From a virus, in the IMG/VR virus record IMGVR_UViG_3300022072_000126, positions 1-25,005 of that record: 25,005 bases of DNA. One strand, given 5' to 3'. The position numbers were made by a program, and so were the translations under genes. How positions within the stretch are numbered: position 1 is the stretch's first letter; the number at the start of each line of letters is the position of its first letter. This document shows positions 3,065 through 19,303 of the stretch, in pieces. A model generated the notes under the pieces. The model saw only the letters and a list, made by a program, of their open reading frames with translations, did not search any database and had not been told where the DNA came from.

Positions 3065-3262
3065 TTAAGCCTCTAGCGGGTCAATAAACCCGTATCTTTT
3101 TATACCGTCATAGCTGGTTTGTAGGAAAAACGTATATATATCAGTGCGTTGCCGCAACTCTTCTCTGCGGTTACTAACAGCCTCGTTTGCTGCTGGCGCA
3201 TCTGCCACCGTATCTGTAATAGTATCAGTGCCGTCTAGCGTAGTATATCCAACTTCAATCAC
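3065..3262 (-). CDS. Small tail-region protein, 65 aa, unknown
   Basis: The start chosen is GTG at 3262. It overlaps the stop of the TipJ-like gene as GTGA and has a GGAG ribosome site 8 bases upstream. Longer forms (ATG at 3289, TTG at 3304) would sit deeper in the preceding gene with poorer ribosome sites. The protein (IEVGYTTLDGTDTITDTV, then REELRQRTDIYTFFLQTSYDGIKRYGFIDP) has no motif I recognise. It looks like a compact alpha/beta protein, probably a tail-tip accessory translated by coupling to the TipJ-like protein. Confidence 0.6.
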   Translation of the reverse strand: MIEVGYTTLDGTDTITDTVADAPAANEAVSNRREELRQRTDIYTFFLQTSYDGIKRYGFIDPLEA

Positions 3263-6634: not shown

Positions 6635-7090
6635 TTACCCTAAAAAGCATTTGTGGTAAACACGCTCTAAAAGATTAAATCCCATGCGCGTCATTAGGTT
6701 GTCAAAGGGAAACTCTGTTTTCATATTTAAAGTCATCAGAGAAGCACCATTTTCTTTGCAATGTGATTCTGCAAATTTAATCAGGTCTGAACCAGTAGCA
6801 GTTTTTCTATAATTAGGCTTTACATAAATCACATCAGTAGAGGCAAAAACGTGATCTTTATGATGGATGCTTTTTGATACCATAACCACACAGTAACCAA
6901 CTAGCTCGCCATCTTCCCTGGCAGTAAATATGTGCAATATACCCATCTGATCAAGCAATGCATATTCTTTCCAATCTGGGTCAAGTGCTATTGTATCTTG
7001 GTTTGGCTCAGTCTCTAACCAATGCTTTTCCAATAAAGGCTTAATATCTTCCTTTACATTAGCCAAACATTCGTGAGCAATTTTAATCAT
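6635..7090 (-). CDS. GNAT-family acetyltransferase in the tail operon, 151 aa
   Basis: The length and fold pattern fit a single GNAT domain. There is a strand with DGELVGYCVVMV (about residues 60-71), then VIYVKPNYRKTATGSDLIKFAE (about 88-109). The latter resembles the acetyl-CoA pyrophosphate-binding motif A (V-x-P-x-x-R then Gly then a helix), although the usual Q/RxxGxG/A core is imperfect (RKTATGS). The end, TRMGFNLLERVYHK, is the usual GF...E...Y closing strand. It overlaps the hub gene by 4 bases (ATGA) and is followed after 4 bases by the TipJ-like gene, so it is part of the tail operon. Its substrate is unknown; a virion protein or a host surface or defence component are possibilities. 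In many siphophages a NlpC/P60 peptidase gene occupies this position, and none is seen here. Confidence 0.75.
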   Translation of the reverse strand: MIKIAHECLANVKEDIKPLLEKHWLETEPNQDTIALDPDWKEYALLDQMGILHIFTAREDGELVGYCVVMVSKSIHHKDHVFASTDVIYVKPNYRKTATGSDLIKFAESHCKENGASLMTLNMKTEFPFDNLMTRMGFNLLERVYHKCFLG

Positions 7091-8282: not shown

Positions 8283-10112
8283 TTATGCTCCGACCATTGC
8301 TCTTGAGAAGTTACCGCCACGCACCCTAGCATCTGCTACAGCGCCTTTAGCGGCTTGGGCTATCTGTGGCATTAGGCTTGCTATCTCGGCTCTAACAGTG
8401 CTTTGTATGCCTGTGGTGACGTTTATGGTTTGGTTGACTACAACACCTGAACCACCGCCTACTTGATTGTTGGGAATGATTGAGCCTGACTGATTAGGAA
8501 CAAACATTTCTGGGCCTCGCTCACCAACCATATAAGGTGAACCTGCCTGCACTGGGCCACCAATAGCTAAAGCACCTCTTCCGCCTGAAACGGTCAAACT
8601 TTTCACACCACCGCCAGCAGAAAGGTTTCCACCGCCACCATCAATCTTGCCTGTGATAAATCCAAATGCTGCGTCTACAATATACTTCTGCACCAGCATT
8701 TTAATTAAACTATCTACAACGCTTTTAGCCATAGACTTAATTGCATCAGCAAAGTTAGCTGCGCCTGTAATGCCTGCCGTTAGTGCGTCTGTAAGGCCCT
8801 CTAGACCCTGCTTTGTTAGGTTCTGAATATTGGTAGTCATATCAGGAATGCTGTCACTCCATGACTTAAAGCCAAGCTCAATGTCGCTTAGTGCTGGAAC
8901 TACAGCGGCTGGTATTGTGCTGGCAGATTCTTTAAAGTTTTCTAGCTTCTCGATTAAGCCATCAATCTCTAAACCTAAGCTACCTGCAAACTTCACCGCA
9001 TTTAGGAAGTCCAGCTCTTCACCCGTCTCTTCTGCCTTTTCAAGCAAAGCCTGTAAAGAGATCAATCGTTTTCTGTCGCTTTCTTGTGAAAGTTCTGCGC
9101 TGCGCTTTTGTTTGGCAGTATAGCCCTGTATTCTCTGCGCTCTCTCAGCCATTGCTTCTTCAAGCTGCTCAACTTCAGTTCTAAGTTGTCGAGCATTTTT
9201 TTCGTTATCGTCGGTAAAGGCTCTAGTTAACGCATCTTTAACCTTCAAGGCTCCGTTATAAACTTTTATAAATCCGTTTGCGAGACCCTCAAAAGCCTGC
9301 AATGCAACCTTTACACCATTCAAAAGGTCAACAGCCAACGATCTAGCAAATGCCTCAACGCCACCCTTTACTTCTATAGATCGCTGTAGGAAGCCAGTAA
9401 ACCTTTCTACTATCATTTCTATTGCAGGGGCAAAGGCTGCTACCGTTTGATCAGTAACGCCTTTAAACAAGCTCTTGAGCTTAGTCAGCGAGTCAACGGT
9501 GTCCTCGACTCCTTTAGCAGCAGTGCTAGACATCGTAAGGCCAAGCACTTTTGCTTCGCCCAGCATTTCTTTAAGGCCATCACTGCCTTGAGATAGAGTA
9601 TTGACAAGGGCTGCACCCTCGGAGTCGAACAGCTTAAAGGCTAGACGTAGCCTATCAGATTCACTTTCTACCTTTTCAAATGCGTCAGCTAGAACAATCA
9701 TTCGTTTATCTAGCGGCATTCTGTTTAATTCTTGAGCATTAATACCTAGCTCTTTAATGGCACCCTTAGCCTCACCAGTTCCTGCTGCTGCTTCCGCAGT
9801 TCTACGGGTAAACCTTTGCAGAGCCATATCCATCGTCTGAGTAGCCACGCCCGTAAGGTCAGCCGCATATCTTAATGCGCCCAGAGCCTCAGTGGTTGTG
9901 CCTATTTTCGCAGCAGTCTTTGCTAGTGAGTCGGTAGCGTTTAGAGATGATCTGACCAATAATCCAAATCCAGCCGCACCAGCAACGCCAATAAGTGCAG
10001 TTCTTAGGCTAAACACAGAGCCAGCTACAGCCTTTAAGCCTTTAGTTGCAGAGCCAAAACCTTTCTTGGTTTTATCGAATGCCCGTATCGTAATGTTTAC
10101 ATTTTCAGCCAT
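8283..10112 (-). CDS. Tape measure protein, about 609 aa
   Basis: This is the largest alpha-helical protein of the tail block. Its N-terminus (AENVNITIRAFDKTKKGFGSATKGLKAVAGSVFSLRTALIGVAGAAGFG) is a classic tape-measure start with a basic amphipathic segment and a hydrophobic stretch. The middle has long helices with charged coiled-coil character (about 310-400). Around residues 430-490 a helical, hydrophobic segment (AGITGAANFADAIKSMAKSVVDSLIKMLVQKYIVDAAFGFITG) precedes a Gly-rich region. The C-terminus ends RVRGGNFSRAMVGA. ATG at 10112 is preferred over GTG at 10121 because the typical N-terminus begins at Ala-Glu-Asn. The ATG overlaps the end of the G/T extension frame. At about 0.15 nm per residue the tail would be near 90 nm, which is an estimate from the general rule. 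Confidence 0.9.
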   Translation of the reverse strand: MAENVNITIRAFDKTKKGFGSATKGLKAVAGSVFSLRTALIGVAGAAGFGLLVRSSLNATDSLAKTAAKIGTTTEALGALRYAADLTGVATQTMDMALQRFTRRTAEAAAGTGEAKGAIKELGINAQELNRMPLDKRMIVLADAFEKVESESDRLRLAFKLFDSEGAALVNTLSQGSDGLKEMLGEAKVLGLTMSSTAAKGVEDTVDSLTKLKSLFKGVTDQTVAAFAPAIEMIVERFTGFLQRSIEVKGGVEAFARSLAVDLLNGVKVALQAFEGLANGFIKVYNGALKVKDALTRAFTDDNEKNARQLRTEVEQLEEAMAERAQRIQGYTAKQKRSAELSQESDRKRLISLQALLEKAEETGEELDFLNAVKFAGSLGLEIDGLIEKLENFKESASTIPAAVVPALSDIELGFKSWSDSIPDMTTNIQNLTKQGLEGLTDALTAGITGAANFADAIKSMAKSVVDSLIKMLVQKYIVDAAFGFITGKIDGGGGNLSAGGGVKSLTVSGGRGALAIGGPVQAGSPYMVGERGPEMFVPNQSGSIIPNNQVGGGSGVVVNQTINVTTGIQSTVRAEIASLMPQIAQAAKGAVADARVRGGNFSRAMVGA

Positions 10113-10227
10113 TGCTTTCACTCATTATCTGGAAGTAAGCCAGCCACTCGTTAAAGTGACTGACAGGCATTTGCTCTGCTTCTTCTATGCTCATGTGAAG
10201 GCGATCAGCCAAAGACAAAAGATTCAT
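10105..10227 (-). CDS. Tail assembly chaperone extension (lambda gpT-like), made by -1 frameshift
   Basis: This 40-codon frame (ATG 10227 to TGA 10105) lies between the chaperone gene and the tape measure, and its end overlaps the tape measure ATG. The translation contains LADRLHMSIEEAEQMPVSHF and NEWLAYFQIM. This is the small helical T-domain pattern seen just upstream of tape measures in lambda-like phages. In its own frame the sequence is open upstream to the slippery site at 10248..10254. Its ATG has AAGG immediately adjacent, too close for good initiation. The natural reading is therefore a GT fusion of 162 residues (10592 to 10105 with a -1 shift), which would recruit tube subunits to the tape measure. 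It is too short for ordinary gene finding. Confidence 0.8.
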   Translation of the reverse strand: MNLLSLADRLHMSIEEAEQMPVSHFNEWLAYFQIMSESNG

Positions 10228-10254
10228 CCTTGATTGATCGCTTCTCAGTTTCCC
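10201..10254 (-). promoter_or_regulatory. Programmed -1 frameshift signal (G GGA AAC plus hairpin)
   Basis: In the chaperone frame the last codons are GAG GGA AAC TGA, so the heptamer GGGAAAC (10254 down to 10248) is in the correct X XXY YYZ phase directly before the stop. Six bases further on, GCGATCA (10241 to 10235) pairs perfectly with TGATCGC (10207 to 10201) across a 27-base loop. Slippery heptamer, 6-base spacer and stem are the standard elements of a -1 frameshift. Lambda uses GGGAAAG at the equivalent place. The -1 frame is open into the 40-codon extension. Confidence 0.85.
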
Positions 10255-10592
10255 TCGGCTGCCTCTACAGATTCGATCTGTGCAAACATCTGATTAGCGA
10301 TTTCACTTATTACATTAGTTTCTTCACCCATCAAATCAATGCGATCTTCGGCAGATGTAAAGAGCTTACTACCGCCCTCGTCCTCTGCTTTCATAACGAT
10401 CAAATCCACCATCGCGCCAACCGTGGTGTTGTTAAGGAAGTTTGGGTGCTTCTTCTGCAACTGATCTAAGTCATAGCAAGTAATGGCCCTGCAATACAGC
10501 TTAAACGCTCCAGATTCGTCACCCCATTCAGGCACTGATACTTCTCGCGCCTCAACCTTCCTTCTACTGCGTAACTCTTTAGCTAATCCCAT
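10245..10592 (-). CDS. Tail assembly chaperone (lambda gpG-like), 115 aa
   Basis: This is a small acidic alpha-helical protein between tube and tape measure, the fixed position of the G chaperone. The body includes SGAFKLYCRAITCYDLDQLQ, KHPNFLNNTTVGAMVDLIVM and a C-terminal acidic helix (NVISEIANQMFAQIESVEAAEGN). The zero-frame product ends at TGA 10245, and a -1 slip two codons earlier makes the longer GT form. In lambda-like phages G and GT are made in an excess of G over GT and coat the tape measure before tube polymerisation, and neither is kept in the virion. Identification rests on position, size and the frameshift architecture together. Confidence 0.85.
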   Translation of the reverse strand: MGLAKELRSRRKVEAREVSVPEWGDESGAFKLYCRAITCYDLDQLQKKHPNFLNNTTVGAMVDLIVMKAEDEGGSKLFTSAEDRIDLMGEETNVISEIANQMFAQIESVEAAEGN

Positions 10593-10604: not shown

Positions 10605-11006
10605 TTATGCTGTTGCTTCGGTTACTGCTCCGCTGCACTGGATAGAGAAGCTGGCTTCTACCATTCCGTCAAAAGAACCAGTGATAGATCGTGAAGTTAC
10701 GATGCCGCCACCAGAGAAATAAGATTCGCCAGTGCCAGTACCCGTTGGATAAATCTCAAAATCTACCGCAGCGCGTTCGTCTAGGATCAATTGCTGTGCA
10801 TCAGCTTCGTCCCAGTAGCACTCGATAGTTACTGTATTGGTTTTTAGACCTTCTTTGTAAGATCGTGCGGTATCGCCCATTACTGAATCTTCAATGGTAT
10901 CTGCTGAACCATCAAACGTGAAAGAACGAACCTCACCCACAACGGCCACAGAGCCGCCAGATGCCGCGATTTTTACTACACCAGATGCGCCTGTTTTAGT
11001 CGCCAT
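10605..11006 (-). CDS. Major tail tube protein, 133 aa
   Basis: It is an all-beta protein of the right size just upstream of the chaperone pair. It begins MATKTGASGVVKIAASGGSV and continues VGEVRSFTFDGSADTIEDSVMGD, DTARSYKEGLKTNTVTIECYWDE and FEIYPTGTGTGESYFSGGGIVTSRSIT. The phrases SADTIEDSVMGD and SITGSFDGMVEASFSIQCSG are typical of tube subunits of siphophages (strand, EDS loop, strand, and a final GMVEASFSI strand). It should polymerise into hexameric rings around the tape measure. The AGAGGT ribosome site and TTATC spacer before the ATG closely resemble those of the capsid gene, in keeping with high expression. Confidence 0.85.
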   Translation of the reverse strand: MATKTGASGVVKIAASGGSVAVVGEVRSFTFDGSADTIEDSVMGDTARSYKEGLKTNTVTIECYWDEADAQQLILDERAAVDFEIYPTGTGTGESYFSGGGIVTSRSITGSFDGMVEASFSIQCSGAVTEATA

Positions 11007-17631: not shown

Positions 17632-17986
17632 TGCCGTCTAAAATAATATTGATAGGTGGAATGTCTTGCACTTCAGCCTCTTGCTCTTTCCAGCCAGCCT
17701 GAGTCTTTAGGTAAAAGATATTAGCGGCAACATTACCTGCTTTAGCCAATTGAATTAAGTTAGACCCCATACTAGCGCACTGTTTAACTCTGCCCTTTTT
17801 ATAAGCGTCAGAAACTTCGGGCTGTCGTTCTTCAATAGCCCGCAAGGTTGTTTCGGAAATACTAAAGTAATCAGCGATTTGGCCTTTAGTTAATACAGCC
17901 GCCAATGCCTCTAATTGAGTTATTTGCTCTGGCGAAAACTCAATAATTGGTCTACCCCCGCCATCACCTTGATTGCCTTTTTTCAT
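17606..17986 (-). CDS. terS: Terminase small subunit, 126 aa
   Basis: The gene lies directly upstream of terL and overlaps it by 26 bases. Residues 15-60 (FSPEQITQLEALAAVLTKGQIADYFSISETTLRAIEERQPEVSDAYKKGR) contain a helix-turn-helix of the DNA-binding type expected for packaging-site recognition. The rest (CASMGSNLIQLAKAGNVAANIFYLKTQAGWKEQEAEVQD) is the helical oligomerisation part with the common NIFYLKTQAGWKE phrase seen in phage small terminases. It has a 4-base overlap with the Mom-like gene before it. The call is strong. Confidence 0.85.
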   Translation of the reverse strand: MKKGNQGDGGGRPIIEFSPEQITQLEALAAVLTKGQIADYFSISETTLRAIEERQPEVSDAYKKGRVKQCASMGSNLIQLAKAGNVAANIFYLKTQAGWKEQEAEVQDIPPINIILDGNAINQTSD

Positions 17987-18696
17987 AGTGATGCCTTTGA
18001 TTGGAGCGTACAGGTCGGAGTTGCACCGCCCAGATCAAGGTGGTCCCTTGACGCCTGCTCTTTTGTACGCTTTACTTGCCCTTTATACATGCCCGCACCT
18101 AATTCGTCAATCTTGCTAAAAGGAATTAAAGGCACTGTTAATCTTTTTTGGCACTCTTTATTTATAAAAAATAAATATCTTAGTTGATACCCGTCAAGAG
18201 TTACTGCGCCAGTAAAATCTTTTCTGCTAGTGCCGTGTGAAGCGGCAACAGTGCCGTCAGCCAATCTTTTAATTGTAGAGTTCTTTCTAATTGCAGTTAA
18301 AACAAAGCCGCTTGCTCTATAGATTGCGCCATCTCCGCATTGAGTGCCATCACTAAAACTAACTATCCAATCAATGTGAGGGTAATGCTTTTTTATTAAT
18401 CTAAAAGCAACTGCAAGCGCCCTTGATTCACTATTTCTTGGAAGCGCCTCACTAAATGCCATTCGATTTAGCTCAAGAAAATCATTGAATTTCGTCTCTG
18501 CAACTAAACCGATTAACTTTCTTCTATCTATCGGTGGCCCAAATTGCATTGCGCCCTCCAATTTTCCGTTTAAGAATACTCCAAAATGCAACTGACTAAT
18601 TGCTGCTGTTTTTCCGCTATAGTGAATTGCTTTTACAACTTTTTCTGCTGCTTTTGCTGTTATTGGCTTAACTTGTATTTCTTTTGCGCTACCCAT
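17983..18696 (-). CDS. mom: Mom-like DNA adenine hypermodification enzyme, 237 aa
   Basis: The length is close to that of Mu Mom. Blocks typical of the Mom family are visible: AIHYSG (23-28), FGVFLNGKLEGAMQFGPPID (38-57), FLELNRMAFSEALPRNSESRALAVA (73-97) and WIVSFSDGTQCGDGAIYRASGFVL (110-133). Mu Mom is a GNAT-fold protein that converts adenine to N6-carbamoylmethyl-adenine in phage DNA and protects it from restriction. The same chemistry is inferred here. The C-terminus has GGATPTCTL. It is co-transcribed with a ParB-like gene (8-base overlap) and with terS (ATGA overlap), so modification is tied to late DNA packaging. The family call is strong. Exact chemistry and target sequence are not shown. 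Confidence 0.85.
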   Translation of the reverse strand: MGSAKEIQVKPITAKAAEKVVKAIHYSGKTAAISQLHFGVFLNGKLEGAMQFGPPIDRRKLIGLVAETKFNDFLELNRMAFSEALPRNSESRALAVAFRLIKKHYPHIDWIVSFSDGTQCGDGAIYRASGFVLTAIRKNSTIKRLADGTVAASHGTSRKDFTGAVTLDGYQLRYLFFINKECQKRLTVPLIPFSKIDELGAGMYKGQVKRTKEQASRDHLDLGGATPTCTLQSKASL

Positions 18697-19303
18697 TATT
18701 TTTTAACCAATCAGTGCAAATAAAAGTTACTGCGTTCCCATTGCTGTTATCGTTTAAACTGCTGTCTGCTAAAGGGTTGGTTCTTGCCAGCATTACAGCG
18801 TCATCAACAATTGCGACTTGCTCATCATGCAAAGTAAAAGTTTTCTTTTGATACGGCTCTTTTTCTCCTGACGCAATATCAGGAAAAATAGATTCCGAAT
18901 CGCTGTCAAATAAAAGGTCATTTAAAAAATCATCATCAAAGCCAAGCAAATCAATGTCAATATCAAGCTCTGACAACCTATCTACCTCAATTCGTAACGC
19001 TTCAAAATCCCAACCTGCGTTCATGGCTAACTGGTTATCTGCTATAACGTATGCTTTTCTCTGGGCCTCTGAGAAGCCTTGTAAGGCAATTGTGGGAACA
19101 GTGTCCATACCTAGCAACTGAGCAGCTTGAAGCCGCCCATGCCCTGCTATAATACCGTTATCCTCGTCTATTAGGATCGGGTTAGTGAAGCCGAACTCTT
19201 TTATGCTGGCAGCGACCTGCTGTACTTGTTTCTCACTGTGCGTTCTTGAGTTGTTAGAATAAGGGATTAGCTCCCCCGTTTTCTTCCATTCAATAGATTC
19301 CAT
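18689..19303 (-). CDS. ParB/Srx-fold protein paired with Mom, 204 aa
   Basis: The N-terminal domain has LIPYSNNSRTHSEKQVQQVAASIKEFGFTNPILID (12-46), IIAGHGRLQAAQLLG (51-65) and RKAYVIADNQLAMNAGWD (82-99), the motif series of ParB-like nuclease/CTPase (ParB/Srx) domains, with GHGR at 54-57. The C-terminal 60 residues (EPYQKKTFTLHDEQVAIVDDAVMLA and AVTFICTDWL) match an extension found in phage ParB-like proteins. Such domains occur alone or fused to DNA methyltransferases in phages. Here the partner is Mom. It may bind DNA or act as a specificity or accessory factor for the modification, which is inference. The start overlaps the upstream stop (TAATG). Confidence 0.85.
   Translation of the reverse strand: MESIEWKKTGELIPYSNNSRTHSEKQVQQVAASIKEFGFTNPILIDEDNGIIAGHGRLQAAQLLGMDTVPTIALQGFSEAQRKAYVIADNQLAMNAGWDFEALRIEVDRLSELDIDIDLLGFDDDFLNDLLFDSDSESIFPDIASGEKEPYQKKTFTLHDEQVAIVDDAVMLARTNPLADSSLNDNSNGNAVTFICTDWLKNNG

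Follow-up and report, generated by a model that had tools for sequence, protein, structure and literature searches.

Organization of the tail locus

The window, i.e. the whole stretch of DNA analyzed here, is a 25,005-base virus record whose tail genes lie on the minus strand; motifs and coordinate pairs in the text below are read on that strand. The features relevant to the cassette are the following:

10605..11006 (−): major tail (tube) protein gene, upstream of G; phrog_10528, E = 2.7e-15
10245..10592 (−), stop included: gene G, predicted tail assembly chaperone, 115 aa; open reading frame matching phrog_344 (E = 2.9e-5), AF2 fold match to 2ob9
10262..10265 (−): SD-like GAGG, candidate 5' stimulator, 7 nt upstream of the heptamer; among the most invariant sites at the codon level
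10248..10254 (−): slippery heptamer G_GGA_AAC, in phase; conserved in relatives
10245..10247 (−): zero-frame stop TGA of G, adjoining the heptamer
10201..10241 (−): 3' hairpin; 10241..10235 pairs with 10207..10201, with an imperfect upper stem above; MFE −22 kcal/mol
10105..10248 (−): −1 frame T domain, 47 codons from the slip plus stop; translation, phrog_337, third-position variation
8283..10112 (−): tape measure protein gene; phrog_9483 (tail length tape measure, E = 5e-53) and PF09718; its ATG overlaps the end of T

Down the minus strand, the order is major tail protein, G, T frame, tape measure, distal tail and further tail genes. The two-part G/T gene thus lies downstream of the tail tube gene and upstream of the tape measure gene, as expected of a lambda-type cassette. 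We are highly confident in predicting that this locus is a tail-assembly-chaperone −1 recoding cassette of the lambda type. The tail operon also contains a GNAT acetyltransferase gene (6635..7090, PF00583, E = 3.9e-9), whose place is taken by a DUF6950 gene in the Roseobacter relatives.

The chaperone gene and its slippery heptamer

The assignment of G as a tail assembly chaperone is based on its match to phrog_344, a profile that lambda G touches only weakly (E = 0.049), and on a predicted fold. The top PDB match of its AF2 model (pLDDT 71) was the HK97 tail assembly chaperone 2ob9 (probability 1.00, E = 0.017). A Pfam search gave no useful match for either G or T, whereas the PHROGs profiles matched both.

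The 3' end of G reads GAG GGA AAC TGA and places GGGAAAC (10254..10248) in X_XXY_YYZ phase directly before the stop. This agrees base for base with the first-pass annotation, made by a model from the letters and open reading frames of the window alone, and its positions and lengths could be reproduced as well. A survey of the window's genes gave in-phase XXXYYYZ heptamers (Y = A/T) at 17 of 7176 codon steps; none but the GGGAAAC of G touches its own stop. One other gene of the window (18689..19303, minus strand), which adjoins the overlapping gene 17983..18696, contains five such heptamers. One of them (AAAAAAT) lies 6 nt before the stop, which may be due to chance.

Related loci were retrieved with seven queries, namely the G proteins of the window and of CRP-821, CRP-406, HTVC026P, HTVC202P, HTVC111P and DSL-LC06. 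Among them, 527 had readable 3' ends; a few of these come from the same contigs via different queries, and unique sequences were used for the statistics. The first-pass annotation had named loss of the heptamer and of the −1 frame in close relatives as the observation that would speak against frameshifting. Instead, an in-phase canonical heptamer (GGGAAAC, AAAAAAC, AAAAAAT or AAAAAAG) lies within four codons of the G stop in 527/527 loci, and the T frame is conserved. The heptamer touches the stop in 515 loci, and is one codon away in nine and four codons away in three. When 25 G proteins were aligned, identity to the window's G was 32–48% for those from other clades. Conservation throughout such a set rules out coincidence. 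We had also considered that the heptamers ending in AAC reflect the lysine tRNAs of the host, an idea that does not fit the AAAAAAG of a Pelagibacter phage and was therefore abandoned.

The −1 frame encodes a conserved T domain

From 10248, the −1 frame is open for 47 sense codons (beginning CTG AGA AGC GAT) up to a TGA at 10107..10105, and it overlaps the tape-measure ATG at 10112..10110. The 40 codons originally proposed are those counted from an internal ATG at 10228..10226, so that both figures describe the same frame. The predicted fusion comprises 115 + 47 = 162 aa, again as proposed.

In the window clade, the mean variation at −1-frame codon positions 1, 2 and 3 is 0.125, 0.086 and 0.332, respectively, and the same order was seen in the three other clades tested. 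This pattern indicates that T is under coding selection. The T domain of the window and lambda gpT match one profile, phrog_337, and T is predicted to form three helices (pLDDT 88). The assignment of the two halves as G and T is therefore upheld by their respective profiles and, for G, by the predicted HK97 chaperone fold. The expectation that ordinary gene calling would overlook T was borne out, since T is without annotation in all seven public relatives inspected.

Two candidate stimulatory elements

The recoding signal had been described as complete on the strength of the heptamer and the stem. Both are present, but an upstream GAGG had been missed. This tetranucleotide (10265..10262) ends 7 nt before the heptamer and 11 nt before the A-site codon AAC. 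Of 179 unique genes from three clades, 177 have GAG at this codon, while GAG makes up 14–41% of the Glu codons that precede a G base elsewhere in these genes. Among 25 conserved sites in the L082 and L084 clades (122 unique genes), codon choice varies least at AAA and AAC of the heptamer and at this GAG, which is present in 120/122 genes; the next-ranked site reaches 0.87. GAGG is also found in 89% of the HTVC111P-like clade and 69% of the DSL-LC06-like clade. The obvious reading, by analogy with dnaX, is that it would pair with the 16S rRNA tail. Spacings of 9–14 nt from the shift site, with the reference point unstated, have been quoted for SD stimulators of −1 shifts (PMC5009743); the 7-nt gap in the window is shorter, and a stimulator role for GAGG can be put forward only as a probable one.

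On the 3' side, six bases including the stop (10247..10242) separate the heptamer from the stem base GCGATCA (10241..10235), which is fully complementary to TGATCGC (10207..10201). The 6-base spacer and perfect 7-bp stem of the first-pass annotation are thus present, although its account understated the extent of the structure, as these 7 bp form the foot of a longer hairpin with imperfect pairing above them. Its MFE of −22 kcal/mol was reached in 4 of 200 dinucleotide shuffles (z = −2.4). As a stricter null, the 56 bases after the stop were folded and compared with shuffles that preserve the −1-frame protein and draw on the family's own codon usage. The natural hairpin folded better than at least 95% of the shuffles in 37/37 unique window-clade sequences (mean z = −4.2); with codon usage taken from T itself, z was −3.6. 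These comparisons indicate that the hairpin is selected beyond protein coding in the window clade.

Of the 37 distinct window-clade sequences, 24 have G-C and 13 have C-G at the pair 10241/10201, and none has a mismatch there, whereas column-wise permutation of synonymous codons kept the pair in 20/37. The 10201 side falls on the third position of an Arg codon (CGC or CGG) and can therefore follow the 5' side without altering the protein. In a phylogeny of G from which the signal region had been left out, the 5' base changed about five times with the partner following, three times on well-supported branches, which is too few for formal significance. Several pairs of the upper stem are broken in part of the clade, and the stem base is therefore the well-conserved part. 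Overall covariation of the whole stem was rejected, as changes on both sides were seen in only two pairs, in one of them in a single sequence.

Proposed mechanism and alternative explanations

The lambda-type G/GT frameshift reading of the first-pass annotation is supported by the conserved heptamer, coding selection on T, the predicted fold of G and the profile shared with lambda gpT. According to this model, most ribosomes would read G, decode AAC and stop at TGA, releasing the 115-aa chaperone. We infer that a minority slips back by one base on G_GGA_AAC, with the Gly and Asn tRNAs re-pairing on GGG and AAA. These ribosomes would then read CTG AGA AGC in place of the stop and continue to the end of the 162-aa G-T fusion. 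It is probable that the 3' hairpin, and pairing of GAGG with 16S rRNA, make the ribosome pause and thereby increase the frequency of slippage. As in lambda, G and the G part of GT would bind the tape measure, and T would recruit the tail tube protein.

The T domain could in principle be a separate small gene that starts at the internal ATG. This ATG, at T codon 8, is present in 77 of 81 window-clade loci and is preceded by AGG in the window. The AGG, however, directly adjoins the ATG and is too close for a normal ribosome-binding site, and codon 8 is GTA or ATA in the other four window-clade loci. Across the clades, five of seven have no ATG within T codons 1–8, and in the L082 clade one is found there in only 9% of sequences. 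Initiation at a start codon of its own is therefore not a general route to T, and it would leave the conserved heptamer unexplained; we consider a separate T gene very improbable. The sequence comparisons indicate that T is a real, frameshift-dependent frame.

It is just as improbable that heptamer, stem and open frame are fortuitous, with G terminating at its TGA and a short leader separating it from the tape-measure gene. In-phase heptamers do occur elsewhere in the window, as mentioned above, but chance would not account for the conservation of the G heptamer in all related loci, for the coding-type variation in T or for the profile common to this domain and lambda T. A fusion made in the window phage by slippage of RNA polymerase seems less plausible still. 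The idea draws on related pelagiphages, in which the site consists of nine A; on runs of this length, slippage of bacterial RNA polymerase is efficient (PMC5009743). The window site, however, has just three G and three A in a row, and GAGG and the hairpin, both known types of ribosomal stimulators, are conserved. Programmed −1 frameshifting by the ribosome thus remains our preferred explanation for the window. A point against this reading is that, in E. coli work cited in PMC5009743, A_AAA_AAC is far less shifty than A_AAA_AAG.

Comparison with known recoding systems

Lambda tail assembly depends on a tuned G:GT ratio. Tail chaperones with a −1 frameshift are found in lambda and many other phages, and the ratio of the lambda G and GT products is quoted as 30:1 (PMC5009743). 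The window shares with lambda the gene order, an in-phase X_XXY_YYZ heptamer near the end of G, a T frame that extends to the tape-measure gene, and phrog_337. The lambda heptamer is GGGAAAG (G_GGA_AAG), lies 15 nt before the G stop and is followed by a −1-frame part of 144 aa, whereas the heptamer of the window ends in C and touches the stop, and its T has 47 aa. Two tail-chaperone sites tested elsewhere gave 6–7% (PMC3711429).

A closer match to the signal itself is found in gp18/gp19 of Burkholderia phage KL1, where GGGAAAC directly precedes the chaperone TGA and the fusion continues in the −1 frame; this frameshift was published as a prediction in 2012 (PMC3483164). KL1 differs in a much longer T part (264-aa fusion), in an extra gene before the tape measure and in lacking GAGG at the corresponding position. 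The heptamer is AAAAAAC in phiCbK-type phages and GGGAAAC in the related Colossus (PMC3556154), and both G_GGA_AAC and A_AAA_AAC are used by haloviruses (PMC5009743).

Roseobacter phages CRP-821, CRP-811 and CRP-406 and Pelagibacter phages HTVC026P, HTVC202P and HTVC111P have the same cassette, with T unannotated in their records. The G proteins of the window, the three CRP phages, HTVC026P and HTVC202P are homologous. Compared with G_GGA_AAC in the window, the heptamer of the CRP and HTVC phages is A_AAA_AAC or A_AAA_AAG, and the helper elements vary by clade. The three-part arrangement of SD-like sequence, heptamer and 3' hairpin is also that of E. coli dnaX (PMC5009743, PMC3711429), and the 6-nt distance between heptamer and hairpin is a short spacing as in dnaX-like signals. 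In contrast, dnaX uses A_AAA_AAG, encodes a polymerase subunit and has its product shortened by the shift, and the SD gap of the window falls below the range quoted for −1 shifts.

Helper elements and A-run length differ between clades

This type of frameshift cassette is already known, and what our analysis adds are the helper elements and their pattern across clades. The window clade mostly has an A-run of three and keeps both GAGG and the hairpin. In clades with A-runs of six or seven, GAGG is mostly kept and the hairpin beats its shuffles in 12–62% of sequences. In the pelagiphage clades (HTVC026P- and HTVC202P-like), G ends in GTA AAA AAA AAC, i.e. with nine A, in 114/114 unique stop-touching sequences, and the nine-A run is also present in the nine exceptions listed, in which the heptamer lies away from the stop. 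Loci L085 and L086 and related pelagiphage loci carry it at the last four codons of G. The Val codon of the site is GTA in 109/109 cases, compared with about half of the Val codons elsewhere in HTVC026P-like genes. GAGG is absent from both nine-A clades, and a hairpin signal was found in 0–9% of their sequences.

Nine A together with the loss of both helper elements make slippage of RNA polymerase possible in these pelagiphage relatives, though not in the window. It is conceivable, if rather doubtful, that one group of marine phages produces the same G-T fusion by two machines, the ribosome in lineages that, like the window, combine a short slippery run with SD-like and hairpin elements, and RNA polymerase in the pelagiphage lineage. 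As other codons in the AT-rich pelagiphage genes are also nearly fixed and the clades were compared without phylogenetic correction, the nine-A pattern is suggestive only.

Our literature search, which did not cover subscription journals, found no published description of the cassette in these phages, and T is missing from their public annotation. In over 500 natural cassettes, whose phages have relatives among Roseobacter and Pelagibacter isolates, the slip site is retained while the helper elements come and go. These cassettes form a ready comparative system for studying how the strength of the slip site and the SD-like and hairpin stimulators may be balanced, and a possible transition of a lineage from ribosomal to transcriptional slippage.

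Additional loci

A megablast search found no close isolate. In HTVC111P (L330), AAAAAAG touches TAA just after G, from position 3119 on, with a perfect 7-bp hairpin (AGCGACC/GGTCGCT) after a gap of 5 nt; the unannotated T of this phage has about 60 aa. A scan of genome contigs matched two MAG contigs, one of which is cut off. The other, from a MAG labelled Pseudomonadales (L328, 5001-5345), carries the same GGGAAAC cassette with a G that is 83% identical to that of the window, and may be a virus contig binned with this MAG.
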